56,351 bases of DNA. Origin: an uncultured Opitutia bacterium. GTDB lineage: Bacteria > Verrucomicrobiota > Verrucomicrobiia > Opitutales > Opitutaceae. Shown one piece after another: positions 1,911 through 15,872 of the stretch; the stretch's first letter is position 1; the number at the start of each line of letters is the position of its first letter. The notes beneath the pieces are model-generated. The model had not been told where the DNA came from. It saw only the letters and a list, made by a program, of their open reading frames with translations, and made no database searches. Location: NCBI GenBank assembly GCA_903902745.1, contig CAIUWA010000049.1, positions 1 to 56,351 on the forward strand, in the 5' to 3' direction. The position numbers and the translations under genes are program-made.

Positions 1911-3479
1911 CTATTTGCCCACATAGCCTGCAGCAGTCTTAAAACCAGGAGCAGCAGTGAAAGTCGCGAGGCAGGTGCCGGTGGTGGTGTCCCAGATGCG
2001 GACTTCGCCGTCGTAGCCGCCGGTCGCGAGGCGGTTTTCCGCGGCGTCGTAGTCGAGGGCGTAGACCCAGTCGTGGTGGCCGGCGTAGGGGCGCACTTCC
2101 TTCAGGGTCGCGAGGTCGAACTGCTTCACCAGGCCGTCGGCCGACGCGGCAAACACCTGGCCGCTGCTCACAGCGAGGGAAAAGACTTCCTGCTGAAATC
2201 CGTGCGCGAGATAGCGGGCGTGGCCAACCTTCTTGAAGCGATCTTCCATGTCGGCGGCCGTGCCGTTCTCGTCGCGCGCCTTCTCCGGCTCCCAGAGCTG
2301 GATCCAGGCGCCGCGGCCGGCGCTCAGCGCCACTGGCGAATCCGCCGTGAACTTCACGTTGTAGACCGGATTCTGCCCGGCGTACGTGCCGATCATCTGG
2401 TTGTGCCCGTTGTAGGTGGTGAAGAGCGTGCCGGTCTCGGCTTCGTAGATCTTGACGGTCTTGTCCTTGCTCGAACTCGCGAGGTAGCGGTGGTCGGAAC
2501 TAAAGCTCACTCCCGTCACCCAGTCGGCGTGCAGTTTCATGTTCCAGAGCCGGTGGCCGTCGGCCGCGTCATAAACCCGCACGGATTGATCGGCGGATCC
2601 GGCCGCGATGCGCTGGCCGTCGTCTCGGAAACAGGCGGACAGCACCACGTCGCCAAAGGTGTCGAGCACGCGGAGCCGCTTGCCCGTCGCGGCGTCCACC
2701 AGGGCAAGCTCGCCATAGTCGCCCGGCGTGCCGCCGCCGACCAGCAGCTGGCTGCCATCGTGGTTGTACGCGAGGCTCTGGATGCGCTGGGGCAAATGGT
2801 CCAGCCGGCGCGCCAGTTTCCCGGTGGCCGTGTTCCAAACCGTCACTTCATGATAGCCCCCGACGGCAACTTCCTTTCCCCCCGGCGCGATCGCCAGCGC
2901 CAGCACCGGCACCGACATGCGGTACACCGCGGGCGCTGCGGGGTGATCGCGCGGGCCGAAAAGTGTCTTCAACGACACCTTAGTGTCCGCCCCGTCGAAC
3001 TTCGCGCCCTGTACGATCCAGGTGCGGAAAAGCTCGATCTGCGCCGGCGTCAGGGCGTCGTCCTGCTGCGGCATGCGGTTGTCCTCGTCGGACTCGGTGA
3101 TGCGGGAGAAAAGCTCCGATTTCGCCGGATCACCCGGCACCACCGCCGGAAGGCCCGAAGAACCGCCATGCATCAGCTGCTCGTAAGTATGGAGACGGTA
3201 ACCGCCCGAGTCCTTCCGCTCGCCGTGGCAGCCGGTGCAGCGCTTCACGATCAACGGCGCGAGATCGCGGACAAAATTTACTTCTGCGCCGGCGGCGGCC
3301 GGAAGCCCGGCGAGCAATAAGGCGGCGATCGTGATCGAATGTAGGAGCGGCTTTATGCCGCGATGCTTGAGCCTGTTGAGCGAATCATCGCGGCGTAAAG
3401 CCGCTCCTACAGTTGGCGGGCCATGATCGGAAAATCGGTCGATAAAGATCATGGACTCAATGCTGGAAGAGGAACTCAC
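1911..3479 (-). CDS. Secreted c-type cytochrome domain-WD40 repeat protein
   Basis: The protein begins, after a hydrophobic signal (SITIAALLLAGLPAAAGA), with a PSCyt1-type cytochrome domain: haem motif CTGCH near residue 82 and the distal region NRMPQQDDALT. From about residue 190 it has WD40 repeats (for example VTGVSFSSDHRYLASSSKD, WDTTTGTCLATF), enough for a propeller. The start is unresolved. The furthest start (GTG at 3479) overlaps the end of the upstream gene, and an ATG lies at 3452, but a REP palindrome (3341-3410) sits in frame between these and the signal peptide, and no ordinary start lies between REP and signal. The REP may be translated as an N-terminal tail, or it may have cut off the original start. 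The substrate is unknown. Confidence 0.8.
   Translation of the reverse strand: MSSSSSIESMIFIDRFSDHGPPTVGAALRRDDSLNRLKHRGIKPLLHSITIAALLLAGLPAAAGAEVNFVRDLAPLIVKRCTGCHGERKDSGGYRLHTYEQLMHGGSSGLPAVVPGDPAKSELFSRITESDEDNRMPQQDDALTPAQIELFRTWIVQGAKFDGADTKVSLKTLFGPRDHPAAPAVYRMSVPVLALAIAPGGKEVAVGGYHEVTVWNTATGKLARRLDHLPQRIQSLAYNHDGSQLLVGGGTPGDYGELALVDAATGKRLRVLDTFGDVVLSACFRDDGQRIAAGSADQSVRVYDAADGHRLWNMKLHADWVTGVSFSSDHRYLASSSKDKTVKIYEAETGTLFTTYNGHNQMIGTYAGQNPVYNVKFTADSPVALSAGRGAWIQLWEPEKARDENGTAADMEDRFKKVGHARYLAHGFQQEVFSLAVSSGQVFAASADGLVKQFDLATLKEVRPYAGHHDWVYALDYDAAENRLATGGYDGEVRIWDTTTGTCLATFTAAPGFKTAAGYVGK
3341..3410. repeat. REP-type inverted pair (GTAG foot), type 1
   Basis: The 25-nt arms 3341-3365 and 3386-3410 match with one mismatch. 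Each arm starts with GTAG followed by a small hairpin (GCGGC-loop-GCCGC), the architecture of REP sequences handled by RAYT (TnpA-REP) enzymes. It lies inside the 5' part of the cytochrome-WD40 open frame. Confidence 0.8.
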
Positions 3480-6400
3480 GCGTGTTGAGGACCGACCAGA
3501 GCAGGTCCATCACGGCCTCGTCGCGCTTTGGCGCCTGCGCGAGAAACTGGCCGCCGGCCGAGCGCTCCGCCGCGGTCGGGAAGCGCGAGAGAGCGGTGAG
3601 ATAAAGCTCGGCGATCAGTTTTTCATTATCCATCGACGCGTAGTGCGCGGTGCCCTTCTGCACGGCCTGGTGCATCATCGTGCCGTTGAGCAACTCCAGC
3701 GCCTGCAGCAGGGTCGGTGAATTCACGCGTTCGCAGGTGCAGGCCGTCTCCCGCTTGGGCTGGCCGAAGGCGACCATGAAGGGCATCGCCTCCGGATACG
3801 GCCGCTGCGTCGCATACTCCATGTGCTGCTGCTGGCCCGTCAGGCGGGCTTGGATTTTCCGGTAGGCCTCATCCATCTGCGGATATATCTCGTGGATGGC
3901 CTGACGGTCATCGGTGGAAAGCTGGCCCACTGATTTCGCGAGCAGGCCGATCACCTGCGGCGGGAGCGGAAGCCGGGCAGCCGCGGCGCCGTCGGCCGGT
4001 TTCGGGTCGTCCACCCGGAAGCGGAACTGCGCCTCGTCCTGCCGGCTCGTGAACTTCATGACGAGCTGATTAATGCCGGCTGCGAGCTCAATCGAGATGC
4101 GCTTCTCGCCCGTCAGCGCCTGCTTGAGGGCGGGCTTGCCGTTGCACCAGATCATCCCGCTGCCGCGCGCGGTGACCTGGATCGTTCGGGCTTCGCGCGA
4201 GTAGATTTCGCGGGCGAGATAGACGGCCGATTCCTTCGGGCAGTCGATCGTGTAGATCGGCTCGGGGTCGTTCCATTCCGGATGCGACCGCCAATGGCGC
4301 CTGCCCCCGTCAAACGTGGCCGTGAAATCCAGCGCCCCCTTCTCAGGCCCGAAATCCTCCTCGCGGACTTCCCCGCGATTGGCACCCGCGAACGGGCCGA
4401 CCGCATACCACACGCCCATCCAAAAATCACGGGAGGCCACGTCGGCCGCCGCCCGGTCCATCCAGGCCGCAAAGTCCGGCTCCAGCTCGGCGCGGCGTTT
4501 TTCGAGTTCGGCGCGGTTCCGGTCGATCTGTTCGGGCAGCGCCTCCACCGGCGCCAGCGTGCCCGCGGCGAGGCCGACGGCATCCTTCAACTGCTCCGCG
4601 GTCAGCAGGCGTGGCCGCGCGTGAGAAAAAAGGAGCTCATCCGACTCGTTGAACGCCGTGGTCTCCAGCGAGCGCTGGTAGGTCTGGCTGTTGCAGATCA
4701 GCCGGATGATCTGCTTGCTCCGGTAGCCGCCCTTGACGAATTCCCGCGCGAGCGCGTCCAGCAGCGGCACGTTCGCCGGCGGGTTCGATGAGCGGAAATC
4801 ATCCACCGGATCCACGATGCCGCGACCGAGCAGGTGCGCCCAGATCCGGTTCACCGCCACGCGCGCAAAGAAGGGATTGTCCGGCTGCGTCAGCCACGAA
4901 ACAAACGGCTCGCGCCGATCCACACCGTCGGGCGCGTCCACCCCACCCCACGGTTTCATGGTCGCCTTCGTGACGGGATGCACGGTCTCTCCCGTCGAGG
5001 CCATTTGCACGACGCCCTGGTCCACCACGGTGCGGGCAAACACCGCGCCGAGGCTGTAATAATCCTTCATCGTCCACTTCTCGTAGGGATGGTTGTGGCA
5101 CTTGGCGCACTCCAGTCGGGAGCCGAGGAAAAGCTGCGCGGTCATCTCGGTCCGCTCTTCCGGCCCCGCGATCGCGAGGAAGAAATTCGCCTCGGGCACC
5201 TGCCGGGTGTCGCCGCTCGCCGTGAGCAGCTTCCGGGCAAACTCCGTATAGGGCATGTCCTGGCGCTGCGCCTCGACCAGCCAGGCCGAGAAGGCCTCCG
5301 CGCGGCCGTCCTTCAGCCGGGTCTTCGAGACGCGCATCAGGTCCGCCTGCTTGAGTGCCCAGAAATGCGCATAGGCATCGCCCGCCAGCAGCTCGTCGAT
5401 GAGCTGGCTGCGCTTGTCCGGAGACTTCCTTTCGATAAACCGCCGGGCCTGCTCCCCGGTCGGGATCAGGCCGGTCAGATCGAGATACAAGCGGCGGACA
5501 AACGTCGCGTCGTCGCAGGTTCCCGCCGGCAGATATTGGAGCTGCTTCAGCTTCGCGTTGACCAGCGTGTCGACGAAATTGACCTCGGCCGGCGCCTGCC
5601 AGGCGAAGTCCGGCACGTCCTCGATCGTCGTGATGTACACCGACTGGACCTGCGAGAGGTAGCGGACGCTGATGGCGACCTGGCCGCGATGCTTGCCCGT
5701 GACGCGGCCGTTGGCGTCGACCACCGCGAGATCCGCATTCGAGGTGTCGTAGGTGGCGATCGTCGAGACGTCGCGCACGCTGCCATCCGTGTAGTAGGCC
5801 AGCACGCTGAGTTGCTGAGTGAGATAGGGTGCCTTGAGCACGCGGTCAGGGCCGGGATAGACCACGATGTGGTCGCACTCGACGGCGGGAAGGTCGATGT
5901 TCGCCCCTTCCGCGATCCAGTTCAGCAACGTGACGTACGGCGTTTCGCCGCGGCGCAGGCGCTTGCCGCCCACGTGATCGAGTTCCATGAGCGGCTTCCG
6001 CAACATGAGGCTTTCCTCCGGTTCCACGGTGTCGATCCGGCGGTTGAATCCGTCGCGCGTCAGCGAGCGGCGGTCGATGGTCGGGTCGTAGCCGAACAGC
6101 GAGAGGGAGAATCCCGCCTTGCCCTGGGGCGAGCCATGGCACGAGCCGGTCGAGCAGCTCTGCTTGGTCAGGATCGCCATCGTCTCGAACTTGAACCGGA
6201 TTGGATCCGGCTGCGCATAATTCACCACCGTCACCGGCACTGAAAGGGTTTTGCCCAGCCACTTGACCGTCAACGCCGCCGCGCCGTCGCCCGCCGCCGT
6301 CACGTAGCCATGGTCGCTTTTCACCACACGCTCGTTGCTGCTGAGAATCTGGGCGAGATGCGTCACGTCGTGCGGCTCGCCGTCCACGTAGGCCGTGACG

Positions 6401-6558
6401 ACCAGCTGCCGGGCCGCGCGGCGGCTCTCAAACTTCAGCTCGGTCAGGTTGGCCTCGAGCCGAACCTCCGACGTTGCCTTCCGCTGAGTCACGGCCGCGA
6501 ATACTGAACCCACGCAGAAAACCCCAATCAGAAGCAAACGCAGGTGGAGTGGTCGCAT
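3457..6558 (-). CDS. DUF1549/DUF1553 protein with bacterial Ig-like and CX4CH motif
   Basis: This is a 1033-residue secreted protein. I place the start at ATG 6558 (MRPLHLRLLLIGVFCVGSVF, a clear signal peptide), because the frame upstream of it only shadows the DUF1501 gene. A beta-rich part precedes the motif CSTGSCHG, of the CX4CH type usual in this family. An Ig-like (Big_2-type) segment follows, then DUF1549 (LYLDLTGLIPTGEQARRF) and DUF1553 with ECAKCHNHPYEKWTMKDY and NRIWAHLLGRGIVDPVDDF. Genes of this kind are usually paired with DUF1501 genes, as here, where the gap is 19 bp. The biochemical role is unproven; links to polysaccharide use in planctomycetes are proposals. Family assignment is firm. 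Confidence 0.88.
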   Translation of the reverse strand: MRPLHLRLLLIGVFCVGSVFAAVTQRKATSEVRLEANLTELKFESRRAARQLVVTAYVDGEPHDVTHLAQILSSNERVVKSDHGYVTAAGDGAAALTVKWLGKTLSVPVTVVNYAQPDPIRFKFETMAILTKQSCSTGSCHGSPQGKAGFSLSLFGYDPTIDRRSLTRDGFNRRIDTVEPEESLMLRKPLMELDHVGGKRLRRGETPYVTLLNWIAEGANIDLPAVECDHIVVYPGPDRVLKAPYLTQQLSVLAYYTDGSVRDVSTIATYDTSNADLAVVDANGRVTGKHRGQVAISVRYLSQVQSVYITTIEDVPDFAWQAPAEVNFVDTLVNAKLKQLQYLPAGTCDDATFVRRLYLDLTGLIPTGEQARRFIERKSPDKRSQLIDELLAGDAYAHFWALKQADLMRVSKTRLKDGRAEAFSAWLVEAQRQDMPYTEFARKLLTASGDTRQVPEANFFLAIAGPEERTEMTAQLFLGSRLECAKCHNHPYEKWTMKDYYSLGAVFARTVVDQGVVQMASTGETVHPVTKATMKPWGGVDAPDGVDRREPFVSWLTQPDNPFFARVAVNRIWAHLLGRGIVDPVDDFRSSNPPANVPLLDALAREFVKGGYRSKQIIRLICNSQTYQRSLETTAFNESDELLFSHARPRLLTAEQLKDAVGLAAGTLAPVEALPEQIDRNRAELEKRRAELEPDFAAWMDRAAADVASRDFWMGVWYAVGPFAGANRGEVREEDFGPEKGALDFTATFDGGRRHWRSHPEWNDPEPIYTIDCPKESAVYLAREIYSREARTIQVTARGSGMIWCNGKPALKQALTGEKRISIELAAGINQLVMKFTSRQDEAQFRFRVDDPKPADGAAAARLPLPPQVIGLLAKSVGQLSTDDRQAIHEIYPQMDEAYRKIQARLTGQQQHMEYATQRPYPEAMPFMVAFGQPKRETACTCERVNSPTLLQALELLNGTMMHQAVQKGTAHYASMDNEKLIAELYLTALSRFPTAAERSAGGQFLAQAPKRDEAVMDLLWSVLNTREFLFQH

Positions 6559-6577
6559 CGGGAAAAATGAGCTGACC

Positions 6578-8020
6578 TCAAACGAACAGCTCCGGGATTG
6601 GCCGGCCCTTGGAGGCCAGCATGATCGGCCGGTTGGCCGCTGTATGCAGCGGCTTGGTCCGGTCGATCCCGAGCTTTTCGTAGATCGTGGCCGCGTAATC
6701 CTCGATCGTGTAGGCCATCGAGCTGGTGATGTAGCCGCCGTCGCGGTCCGTGGAGCCGACGAGCTGCCCGCGGGGGACGCCGGCCCCGGCGAAGGCAAAG
6801 CTGAAGGAGTGGGTCCAGTGGTCGCGGCCCTGGCGGTCGTTGACCTTCGGGGTGCGGCCGAACTCCGTGACGAAACAAACCAGCGTCTCGTCGAGCAGCC
6901 CGCGTTGGTCCATGTCCTCGATCAGCGCCGAGAAGGCCTGGTCAGTCGAACCCATCATCGGCCACGTCCCGATGCCCCAGCGGCCGGCGCCGGGTCCGCC
7001 ATTCGGGATGTTCGTGTGGCTGGTCGAGTAGATCGCATCGTGGTGGTCCCAGTTCATGTTGGTGCCGCCATCATAGGAGGTGTCCTTGCCGTCGACCCAC
7101 GACTGGCGCGGCTCGCGCACGTCCACCGTCACGAAGCGCACACCCGACTCGATGAGCTTCCGGCCCAGCAAATAGCACTGGCCGCGATGACCCATGCCGT
7201 AGCGGGTGCGCATCGACTCCGGCTCGCGCGCGAGATCGAAGGCCTCGCGCGTGCGCGGGTTGGTCAGCATGTTCTCCGCCTGCTGCAGGAGGGCGTGCAT
7301 CGCGTCGATATCCTTCACGTTGCCGCTGTGCGCGAAGCCGACGTCGAGGTTGCTCAGCAGGTCGCGCCGCTGCTTGAAGCGCTCCGGGGCGATATCGGCC
7401 ATCAGGCCGAGATTCGGCACCTGCCACTTCGGGTCGGCCAGGTTGCCGCCGGTCTTGAACACCGCATAGCCCGGCGGCAGGAAGCCGACATGTGAGGTGG
7501 CCGCCTGCTCGCTCGTGCCGGGCACGAGAATGTTGCTGGGCAGAAATTCGGCCTGCGTGCCCAGGATCGAGGCCACCACGGAACTGATGTCCGGCATCTC
7601 GACCGCGCCGCCGGGCGCCTCGCCGGAGAAAATATACTGCGAGCCCTTCGGGTGGGAGTCGCCGATGCCCGGCGTTGGCTGCGTCATGCACCGGACGACG
7701 GTCAGGCGATCCGCCACCTTGGCCGTCTTGCTCAGCAACTCGGTGAACTGCATCCCCGGCACCACCGTGGAGATGGGTTTGAAAGGGCTGCGGTGCTCCG
7801 TCGGAGCGTCCGGTTTCGGATCCCAAGTGTCGATTTGCGACACCCCGCCCTGCTCAAAAATCACCAGCACCTGCTTGGCCCGGCCCTTCCGGCTGGGCGT
7901 GGCGGCGGCCGCGAGCGCGGTCGGCAGGCTGCCGAAACCCGCGAGATGCGCCAGCCCGCCGAGCCCGAGGCCGATAAAACTCCGACGGCGCAACAAGGGG
8001 ACATGGCTGTGGCTGTGCAT
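6578..8020 (-). CDS. DUF1501 family protein, Tat-exported
   Basis: A 480-residue protein starting at ATG 8020 (MHSHSHVPLLRRRSFIGLGL). The twin-arginine motif RRRSF and the following hydrophobic stretch mark a Tat signal; an upstream in-frame ATG at 8101 would spoil it. The body shows DUF1501 features related to the alkaline-phosphatase/sulfatase fold: VLVIFEQGGVSQIDTWDPKP near the N-terminus, FVTEFGRTPKVNDRQGRDHW late in the protein, and a closing MLASKGRPIPELF. It is the first gene of the group continuing with DUF1549/DUF1553. No enzymatic activity is established for the family, so function is left open. Confidence 0.9.
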   Translation of the reverse strand: MHSHSHVPLLRRRSFIGLGLGGLAHLAGFGSLPTALAAAATPSRKGRAKQVLVIFEQGGVSQIDTWDPKPDAPTEHRSPFKPISTVVPGMQFTELLSKTAKVADRLTVVRCMTQPTPGIGDSHPKGSQYIFSGEAPGGAVEMPDISSVVASILGTQAEFLPSNILVPGTSEQAATSHVGFLPPGYAVFKTGGNLADPKWQVPNLGLMADIAPERFKQRRDLLSNLDVGFAHSGNVKDIDAMHALLQQAENMLTNPRTREAFDLAREPESMRTRYGMGHRGQCYLLGRKLIESGVRFVTVDVREPRQSWVDGKDTSYDGGTNMNWDHHDAIYSTSHTNIPNGGPGAGRWGIGTWPMMGSTDQAFSALIEDMDQRGLLDETLVCFVTEFGRTPKVNDRQGRDHWTHSFSFAFAGAGVPRGQLVGSTDRDGGYITSSMAYTIEDYAATIYEKLGIDRTKPLHTAANRPIMLASKGRPIPELFV

Positions 8021-8110
8021 CAGACGGCGGGGCGGGTATAACACACGGGGGTGACCCGTAATTTTCCCCTCCCGCCACTCAACGCAAGCGGAATGATCCA
8101 CCGACTATTT

Positions 8111-8280: not shown

Positions 8281-9900
8281 TCAGTCGTGCGGGGAGTGCA
8301 GATTATTGGGGAGTCCGCTGGCCGTCCAAAATCCCTGCAACCGGGCGGGATCAATCGGCGCCGCGAGGTAAGGCTGAAGCTGCGCCGGATCGGTCAGAGG
8401 CTCGTCCCGGGTCTTGATAAAATCCGCCATGGCCCGCAGCACCGTGCCGCTCATATCGCTGTAAGAACCGGAATGAATGCTGAGGTTACCCTCGTTCATC
8501 TGCCTGCGCGGTCCGCTCATGTAGAGGGTCGAATCCTGCTTCCCCTCCACCGAGGCAACTTCGGCGATGACGACGGCATCAGACGGCACCTCTCGCATCC
8601 GGCCGGTGCGCACCATGCCATACCGCGCCAGCAACTCGCTGTCGCCGGGAGCTTCGAGAAAGGCGGCGAGTTGCATTATATCCGTGGGCAACTGGCCTTC
8701 GTTCGCCTGAGCGTATTTCCACAGAGCCCTGGACATGAGATCGGAGAAATTAACCTTGGCGTTGTTGCGGAGGTCCTGGAATGCGTCCCGCATATCTCCT
8801 TCGGAGTCCAATTTGTGCTTCGTCGCCGTGGTGATCCAATCCTGGTCCTTCAACAGGCGAAGCTCGGGGATCTGCTGCCGCGTCTCCTGCGCCATTTTTT
8901 CCTTCAGGAAATTCACCCGTTCGGACACGACCTTCAACTCGGCATCCAACACGTTGTCGCCGTTCGCCGGCCCGCGTTCATCCGCGACGCTCTTCGTCCG
9001 TCCGGCCGCCACCTCCTGCTGGGCAGCCGCCAGTCGGCCCGCAAGTTCATCATTCTCCTGCTGACGCCGGCGATTCTCGCCGCGCCCCCGTTCCGCCTGC
9101 TGCTGCAGTTCTAGGATTTGATCATCGCGCCGGATGACAAGGTGATGCTCATAAAGGGCCGCACCGAGCAGGGCGGCGACGGTGGTGACGAGGAGGGTTT
9201 TTTGAATCGTGGTCATGGCAATAGTCTTGGCGGCCTCGATGGCGGCGACGTGACCGGCCGCGCCGGTGAGGACCGCGGCGGACGAAAACGAGAGGCCCAG
9301 CCCGATGGGCGCAGTCTGGACCGCGCCGGCGGCCAGATCGGCAGCGAGCGCCGTCGCCCCGATCGCCACGCCGCGCTTGGAAAAATAGCCCCGCAGTTGC
9401 TCGAGAGCGCGGCTCACGCGCTTCTGCGCCGCATCCTCGGACGTGCCGAGCAGCCGGCCGACTTCGCGCAGGCTCTTGTTTTCAAAGTAACGCAGCAGAA
9501 TGGCGCTGCGATCGGTCTCGGCCAGAGTTTCCATCGCCTCGTCCAGCAGGGGCTCGACCTGCGGCCATCCGGGGGAATTCGAATTCATGGCGGCAATTTC
9601 ATAGGCGGTTTGTTCGCGGGCCTGGCGGCGCGATTCGCGCCGGATGACATCGATCGCCGCCCGGCGCGTGGTGAGGTAGAGCCACGCGGTCAGAGGCGCA
9701 TCAGGCTTCATCTGGTGCCCGTGACGGGCCAGCGCGACGAAGACCGTCTACGTGACTTCCTCCGCCAGGTCGGGCGATCGCAGCTGGCGGCGGGCCGCCG
9801 AATAAACCAGGTCGACATGCCGGCTCACCAGCGTCGCGAAGGCCGCCTGCGAGCCTTCCGCCGCATAGTCCCGGATCAACTGCTGGTCATCCGTGCTCAT
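8281..9900 (-). pseudogene. ECF sigma factor with membrane-anchored C-terminal extension, interrupted by an amber codon
   Basis: From ATG 9900 the frame reads MSTDDQQLIRDYAAEGSQAA and then sigma region 2 (AEEVT). It meets TAG at 9750-9748 and continues in the same frame with TVFVALARHG, region 2.3-2.4 (WLYLTTRRAAIDVIRRE) and region 4 (DRSAILLRYFENKSLREVG, TSEDAAQKRVSRALEQLR). The stop stands where relatives have Gln (AEEVTQ-VF-ALA), so one C-to-T change (CAG to TAG) explains it. After region 4 come a membrane segment (LLVTTVAALLGAALY), a coiled coil rich in Gln/Glu/Arg, and a ~200-residue C-terminal domain. This layout is familiar in Verrucomicrobia. Reinitiation at ATG 9711 would lose most of region 2. 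The 3' two-thirds remain fully open, so the lesion is recent, suppressed, or a sequencing error. Confidence 0.85.
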
Positions 9901-9990
9901 TTACCTGAGATAACGCCACTGCTCCCGGAAATCCGACATAAAATCCAGACAGTCCCAAAAAATTCCTCGCCGACATCCTCCGATCTGTTT

Positions 9991-13604: not shown

Positions 13605-15872
13605 CTAACCCAGGTTCACCGGGTCCACGTCGAGCACCTGCGTCATGTCGTCGGGCCAGGCGAAGGCGGCGCGCAGTTCCGCAAGGCGGGGCACCACCTT
13701 GGTTGCCGAGGCGCAGAAATACCAGAGCTGCCAGCGGTACTCGTCCTTGATCTTCTCGATCGGCGACGGCGACGGGCCGCGCAGTTCCAGGCGGTCGCCG
13801 AATTCCTTCTCCACGGTTTTCGCCCATTGCTCGGCGAAGAACTTCAGCTTCTCGGGGTTCGGTCCGCGGAAGAGATGGTGAATCAGGTGACGGTAAGGCG
13901 GATAATGAAACTCCCGCCGGATCTGCAGCTCCGCCGCGGCAAAGCCGGCATAGTCGGCATGGCGCGAGAACTGGATCGCGCCGGCCTGCGGCGTGAAGGT
14001 CTGCACGATGACCTCGCCCGCCCGGTCGCCGCGGCCGGCCCGGCCCGCCACCTGCACGAGGAGCTGGAAGGTCCGCTCGTTGGCCCGGAAATCCGGGATG
14101 TGCATCGAAATGTCGGCGTCGACCAGGCCGACGAGCGTGACGTTCGGAAAGTCCAGGCCCTTGCCGATCATCTGGGTGCCGACGAGAATATCGATCTTGC
14201 CCGCCCGGAAATCGGCGAGGATCTCGCGGAAACGGTTTTTCTTCGCCATCGCGTCGGTGTCCATGCGCTCGATCCGCGCCCGCGGCAGTGCACGGCGCAC
14301 GGCCTCCTCGACGCGCTGCGTGCCGAGGCCCCGCCAGCGGATGTCGGGCGCGGCGCACTGCGGGCAGCGCAGCGGCGCGGGCCGCGTCTCGCCGCAGAGG
14401 TGGCAGCGCAGCGTTTCGTCGGTGCGGTGGTAGGTCAGAGCGATACTGCAGTGCGGGCACTCCTCCACGTGGCCGCACTTGGTGCAGAGCATGGACGACG
14501 AGTAGCCGCGACGGTTGATGAAGAGGATCGTCTGTTCGCGCCGGTCGAGGCGGCCGCGCATGGCGTCGACCAGCTTGCGGGAAAGCGCCGGCAGCGTGCG
14601 CTGGCGCATCGCCTCGATGCGGAGGTCGACGATGTCGATGTGCGGCAGCTTGCGGTCGTCCACGCGCTGGAGGAGCTGGATCAACCGGTATTTTCCCGCC
14701 TGGGCGTTGGCGTAGCTCTCCAGCGACGGCGTGGCCGAGCCAAGCAGGCAGACGGCGCCGTTGAGCTTCGCGCGCATGACCGCGACATCGCGGCCGTGGT
14801 AGCGCGGTGTCTCGTCCTGCTTGTACGCCGGCTCGTGTTCCTCATCCACGACGATGAGCCCGAGATTCTGCACCGGGGCGAAGACCGCGGAGCGCGCGCC
14901 GACCACCACCCTCGCCTCGCCCGTCGCCAGCGCCAGCCAGCCATCCAGCCGCTCGCCCTCGCTCAGATGACTGTGCCAGACCACCACGCGGTGGCCGGGC
15001 GCTATCGCCTCGAGCCGCGAACGCAGGCGCGCGACCGTCTGCGGCGTGAGCGCCACTTCCGGCACGAGGAAAATCACGCCCGTGCCTGCCTTCAGCGCGG
15101 TGTCGATCGCACGCAGGTAAACCTCGGTCTTGCCCGAGCCGGTGACGCCGTGGAGGAGCGAGACGCTGAATTTCTTCGCCGCGAGGCCCGCCGTGACCGT
15201 GGCCACGGCGGCCGCCTGCTCGCCATTCAGCACATGCGGCTGGGAGGCGACGAGTTCGCCGTGCGCCCAGTCGTCGGCGTAGGCCACGCGCTCGACGCGG
15301 CGCGTTTCCTCGCGCAGCACGCCCCGCTTCACCAGCGCGCTGCTCACGGCAGCGGTGAGGCCGAGGCGCTTGAGCACCAGCGCCCTTCCCTGCGGCTTGA
15401 ACTGCTGCTCGAGAAACCGGTACAGCCGCGCCTGCTGCGGGGCGCGCTTGGCCAGCGCGGCCAGTTCGTCGGCGGACAGGCGCTGCGCCACCGTGAGCAG
15501 CTTCTCCTGCTTCAAGCCGGCGCCGTTGCGCACCGCCGCGGGAATCATCGTCTCGATGATGCTGTCGAGCCCGCACGCGTAGTAGCCGGCCATCCAACGG
15601 GCGAGCCCGAGCAGGTCGGGCGGCAACGCGGGAAACGGGTGGACGACCTGCACGATGGATTTGAGCCGGTCGACGGGAAAATCCCGCGGTGCGCCAATCT
15701 CGCCGATGATCCCCAGGCGGATGGTGTTGAGCAGCGGCACGCGCACGAGAGCGCCGACGCCGGCACCCGCCCGCAGCGACTCCGGCACGCGGTAGTGCAG
15801 GAGCTTGTCAAAACCCGCGAGCGGGTGGACGCCGACAATCATGGCCGGATGACGGAGCGCGTTCCGCGGCAT
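13605..15872 (-). CDS. priA: Primosomal protein N' (replication restart helicase PriA)
   Basis: 755 residues, close to the usual PriA length. Motifs in order: N-terminal DNA-binding domain (VRVPLLNTIRLGII), helicase motif I GVTGSGKTEVYL, motif II DEEHEPAYKQDE followed by YHGRDVAVMRA, then the zinc-binding insertion with paired cysteines (CTKCG, CPHC, CHLCG, CPQC), motif V GTQMIGKGLDFPNV and motif VI QVAGRAGRGDRAGEV. PriA rebuilds replication forks at stalled or recombined structures by loading the replicative helicase. The start is ATG 15872 or ATG 15842, the second beginning directly at MIVGVHPLAGF. It diverges from fur, with a ~120-bp repeat element between. Confidence 0.95.
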   Translation of the reverse strand: MPRNALRHPAMIVGVHPLAGFDKLLHYRVPESLRAGAGVGALVRVPLLNTIRLGIIGEIGAPRDFPVDRLKSIVQVVHPFPALPPDLLGLARWMAGYYACGLDSIIETMIPAAVRNGAGLKQEKLLTVAQRLSADELAALAKRAPQQARLYRFLEQQFKPQGRALVLKRLGLTAAVSSALVKRGVLREETRRVERVAYADDWAHGELVASQPHVLNGEQAAAVATVTAGLAAKKFSVSLLHGVTGSGKTEVYLRAIDTALKAGTGVIFLVPEVALTPQTVARLRSRLEAIAPGHRVVVWHSHLSEGERLDGWLALATGEARVVVGARSAVFAPVQNLGLIVVDEEHEPAYKQDETPRYHGRDVAVMRAKLNGAVCLLGSATPSLESYANAQAGKYRLIQLLQRVDDRKLPHIDIVDLRIEAMRQRTLPALSRKLVDAMRGRLDRREQTILFINRRGYSSSMLCTKCGHVEECPHCSIALTYHRTDETLRCHLCGETRPAPLRCPQCAAPDIRWRGLGTQRVEEAVRRALPRARIERMDTDAMAKKNRFREILADFRAGKIDILVGTQMIGKGLDFPNVTLVGLVDADISMHIPDFRANERTFQLLVQVAGRAGRGDRAGEVIVQTFTPQAGAIQFSRHADYAGFAAAELQIRREFHYPPYRHLIHHLFRGPNPEKLKFFAEQWAKTVEKEFGDRLELRGPSPSPIEKIKDEYRWQLWYFCASATKVVPRLAELRAAFAWPDDMTQVLDVDPVNLG

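Follow-up and report, generated by a model that had tools for sequence, protein, structure and literature searches.

A probable recent nonsense allele of an ECF-type sigma factor gene in an Opitutaceae draft genome

ECF sigma factors (TIGR02937) combine the domains Sigma70_r2 and Sigma70_r4_2, and autoregulation is described as common among them in an excerpt of PMC8103513. The gene under study lies in a window of 56,351 nucleotides (the whole stretch of DNA that was analysed) from an uncultured Opitutaceae bacterium. It resembles these sigma factors in both domains, in having intact orthologs and in being probably autoregulated, but an in-frame TAG codon sets it apart, as does a long extension at the C-terminus that carries a hydrophobic stretch (Table 1). 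In the ECF41 group, a C-terminal regulatory domain is fused to the sigma factor and the target motif is TGTCACA-N16-CGTC (excerpt of PMC3426412). The present gene is similar to ECF41 members in its large C-terminal extension, in a putative -35 element beginning with TGTC, and in that exact matches of the motif were seen at its own locus only. However, the -35 element is TGTCGG instead of TGTCACA, the -10 element is CGTTAT instead of CGTC, and the ECF41 target motif was not found upstream of the gene. The extension also has no match above cut-off in a Pfam scan, and no carboxymuconolactone decarboxylase, oxidoreductase or epimerase family was detected among the neighbour proteins scanned. A last comparison concerns the nonsense alleles of the Shigella diguanylate cyclase genes dgcE, dgcQ, and dgcN, in which one stop likewise precedes the functional domain of an otherwise intact gene. 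These alleles were assayed, and some still gave active products by an unclear mechanism (excerpt of PMC11327459).

Table 1. Features of the sigma factor locus (positions in the window).
Feature	Position	Strand	Remarks
PSCyt1/WD40 gene	1911-3479	minus	planctomycete cytochrome C domain and WD40 repeats; end of the DUF1501/PSD1 gene row
PSCyt2/PSD1 gene	3457-6798	minus	downstream of the sigma factor gene
DUF1501 gene	6578-8101	minus	downstream of the sigma factor gene
ECF-type sigma factor gene, interrupted and C-terminally extended	8281-9900	minus	539 codons and TGA stop; translation, Pfam, orthologs
C-terminal extension beyond the hydrophobic stretch	8284-9141	minus	no Pfam family of its own reaches the cut-off
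Hydrophobic stretch, possible membrane helix	9142-9219	minus	between sigma domains and C-terminal region; about residues 228-253 (near 227-256 by hydropathy)
Internal ATG (Met64), proposed alternative start	9709-9711	minus	Leu in both orthologs
In-frame TAG, codon 51, conserved region-2.2 Gln	9748-9750	minus	translation, ortholog alignment
N-terminal 50 codons, would be translated up to the stop	9751-9900	minus	translation
Putative self-recognised promoter TGTCGG-N17-CGTTAT	9910-9938	minus	ends 9 nt before the ATG; sole exact match in the genome

Translation of the minus strand from ATG 9900 to 8281 gives 539 residues, closed by a TGA codon (8281-8283), with a single internal stop, the amber codon present in the assembled sequence at 9748-9750. 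When this TAG is read as Gln, the frame matches Sigma70_r2 (PF04542; residues 24-92, 51.9 bits for a cut-off of 24) and Sigma70_r4_2 (PF08281; residues 119-169, 45.3 bits for a cut-off of 25.7), and passes the NCBIfam model of the ECF superfamily, TIGR02937 (79.9 bits for a cut-off of 42.9). Its score of 52.1 bits for TIGR02989 (Rhodopirellula/Verrucomicrobium family) is below the curated cut-off of 124.55. The gene possesses the region 2 and region 4 domains of an ECF sigma factor, and its reading frame is interrupted at codon 51. The initial annotation, which had described an ECF sigma factor with TAG as codon 51 of a 539-codon frame and at a conserved Gln motif, was right on codon count, frame and motif, as well as on the identity of the protein. 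The structure model, built from four sequences (mean pLDDT 56.8, pTM 0.31), includes a low-confidence helix at residues 231-304, and Foldseek ranks ECF sigma factors at the top of its matches, with TM-scores that are poor.

The interrupted position is highly conserved, as Gln is found in 52 of the 54 distinct other homologous stretches that cover codon 51 (one Asn and one Ala being the exceptions), down to about 21% identity, and aligns with a Gln in the solved chains of Mycobacterium tuberculosis SigE. We take this residue to be part of the region-2.2 helix that binds core; a literature search found nothing on a core-binding role of the region-2.2 Gln. As the stop falls within region 2.2, neither the 50-residue stub nor the product of a restart at ATG 9711 should bind core polymerase. 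This ATG opens a frame of 476 codons, and translation restarting there could provide a shortened regulator that binds DNA but not core polymerase. Such a product would nevertheless be devoid of regions 2.1-2.2, and the Met is replaced by Leu in the two closest orthologs, so that the start is not conserved. We consider this the least probable of the readings weighed here. A homolog group starting at 9711, which had been put forward as a way to dismiss the interruption, did not materialize, as both orthologs start at the position corresponding to 9900.

These two orthologs were identified in a search of 57 genomes, including the one carrying the gene. Among the matches listed, the closest ones outside this genome belong to the same genus (G002; 65% identity, 541 aa) and to the same family, Opitutaceae (G024; 55% identity, 541 aa); both are full-length and stop-free, and carry Gln at the codon-51 position, so the comparison with close relatives that had been proposed shows an intact frame in both. 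Of the two other same-genus genomes included in the search, only G002 has a close ortholog among the matches listed (G001 is just 72% complete). The sigma factor gene is dispensable, or accessory. An intact twin copy in the same genome was considered and rejected, as the next-best match there, among those listed, is only 39% identical. At the scale of the order (372 genomes, each represented by no more than three scored candidates), 52 matches were listed at E <= 1e-40; our gene is alone in having a stop, and none of the other 51 shows one inside the sigma domains. Neither are stops a habit of the family, as the five listed homologs that carry a TGA have none within regions 2-4 in the alignment (the TGA follows region 4 in three of them, and the other two are stop-free over the stretch aligned to regions 2-4).

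Lineage-specific changes in our gene and in its G002 ortholog were polarized with G024 as outgroup. After the stop, 50 changes are specific to our gene (10 in residues 52-180 and 40 in residues 181-539) and 57 to the G002 ortholog (13 and 44, respectively), which corresponds to a ratio of 0.88 (95% interval 0.59-1.31, over 488 sites); before the stop, the counts are 3 and 5. Between the two genes, dN/dS is about 0.20 for residues 52-180 and about 0.28 for residues 181-539. Relaxed selection or long-standing decay was thus not detected after the stop. Assuming a fivefold higher rate under neutral evolution, the neutral share of the branch since the split would be about 8% at most (13% with a dN/dS of 0.3). 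This bound is rough, given a dS close to 1 and a weaker constraint on the extension than on the sigma domains. With no excess of change after it, the stop either arose very recently, is not real, or does not disable the gene. The initial annotation had viewed the undamaged remainder of the gene as pointing to a very recent loss or a base error, and the orthologs, the change counts and the 52 Gln of 54 all agree with this view.

We favour the first of these options, and assign a probability of about 0.62 to a recent nonsense allele, made null, of an accessory and probably self-activating sigma factor. The gene encodes an ECF-type sigma factor that very probably drives its own transcription, and a single nonsense change would very recently have converted its conserved region-2.2 Gln codon into TAG. 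Provided that the assembled base is also that of the organism, and with TAG acting as a working stop, translation would end after 50 residues, no functional sigma factor would be made, and positive feedback of the protein on its own promoter would be lost. As found, the case has little wider significance, being that of a single nonsense allele in a draft genome, which affects an accessory regulator. Two points count against a null allele: the intact downstream sequence is equally predicted by a base error or by a working recoded gene, and the sampled families offer no other in-frame stop (0 of 18 sigma factor and 0 of 71 ABC matches) and no independent sign of gene decay.

The stop may instead be confined to the draft assembly, as a base-level consensus error or the variant of a minority strain, the gene of the organism being intact. 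A one-base difference from a sense codon in a gene that is otherwise undamaged and under unrelaxed selection would fit such an artefact, and the genome (3,286,904 bases) is a draft in 52 contigs, 98.18% complete, while the relatives G002 and G024 are MAGs. On contig C16 (177358-177782), two overlapping partial ABC_tran matches lie in different open frames, and this ABC gene thus looks split, possibly by a frameshift in the gene or by an indel of the assembly. Yet our gene is the only one of the 19 Sigma70_r2 matches of the genome with an internal stop, and none of the 71 ABC_tran matches has one. Similarly, a codon-usage scan of the window retrieved four stops with coding-like in-frame sequence on both sides, namely the TAG itself, two stops antisense to genes and one normal FUR/TPR gene junction, and hence no other in-frame stop inside a coding frame. 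With no other in-frame stop in these samples, the assembly is not generally error-ridden, and we regard an error or variant as rather unlikely, though it is the most serious competitor of a true nonsense allele.

The same lack of decay after the stop, together with the kept upstream motif, would be expected if TAG were read through, by a near-cognate Gln-tRNA or an unseen suppressor, to give a low level of full-length, self-activating sigma factor. Genes for tRNA-Gln with CTG and TTG anticodons are present, as in any genome, and full-length protein from nonsense-mutated bacterial genes is on record (excerpt of PMC11327459). Although this Shigella precedent exists, nothing in the data on the sigma factor gene points to read-through. 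Indeed, none of the 46 tRNA genes found in its genome with the Rfam model, all typed with ARAGORN, has a CTA anticodon, in a set that is incomplete, as it comprises no Ile-GAT or Ala-TGC gene. Three proteins of the genome have an RF-1 domain, one of them with PVT and another with SPF, which we take to be the marks of RF1 and RF2, respectively. In addition, priA (13605-15872, in the same window) ends in TAG, where the 85% identical protein of G024 ends in TAA, so TAG is used as an ordinary terminator in this genome. Given the presence of an RF1-type factor, the Gln of both orthologs and the 51 order-wide matches devoid of a stop inside the sigma domains (the five TGA cases being outside regions 2-4), a recoded or suppressed amber gene, as initially envisaged, is not supported and read-through is very unlikely; a suppressor tRNA was rejected, as none was seen among the 46 genes. 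Even less probable is that rare amber read-through at the core-binding Gln holds the basal level down, the stop thereby gating a positive feedback loop; a functional stop of this kind would make the gene a rare example of sigma factor expression gated by a stop codon.

The interruption had also been expected to affect the DUF1501 operon located directly downstream, if this operon is the target of the sigma factor. In the regions flanking the orthologs (about 8 kb on each side in G002, 7-8 kb in G024), no homologs of the genes of this row were detected, and the exact TGTCGG-N17-CGTTAT motif, whose single occurrence in the genome precedes the sigma factor gene, is absent from the operon. The operon was therefore discarded as a target, its link with the sigma factor gene being one of physical adjacency only. 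On the other side, priA and the genes beyond are common to G024 and not to the closer G002. As synteny is not kept in G002, orthology to this genome rests on sequence and motif.

The hexamers of the motif, their spacing and their distance to the ATG are identical in G002 and G024. Among six genomes searched for TGTCGG-N17-CGWTAT, one match was found in each of four (the genome of the gene, G002, G024, and G003), always preceding a homolog, two in G001 and none in G031, while a backwards-read control motif had no match in any of the six. A less strict motif, TGT-(N)-CGG-[AT]T, was chosen after inspecting these same sequences, from which it derives. It is present ahead of 25 of 36 distinct homologs, at 31-46 nt before the aligned start, vs in 12 of 720 random stretches from the same loci. 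This enrichment supports self-activation, and the sigma factor apparently activates its own transcription from the putative promoter of Table 1. Further targets are possible, as the genome-wide search took exact matches only. Between 7900 and 11200, a scan for sigma-70 promoters found none (0.7 expected), and seven terminator-like sites were counted (3.1 expected).

The close group of homologs has TGTCGGAT upstream, and more distant copies have TGT[C/T/G]CGGTT, which suggests paralogs with slightly diverged candidate self-promoters. The shared motif suggests a family of self-activating, C-terminally extended sigma factors in Opitutaceae and relatives. Besides the copy at 9910-9938, it was seen upstream at loci L021, L022, L023, L026, L014, L018, L033, and others. 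Finally, G002 harbours a second copy (contig C78, 52008-52343, in L096), 62-64% identical, whose 126-aa open frame ends before region 4; this truncated copy has its own TGTCGGAT motif upstream.
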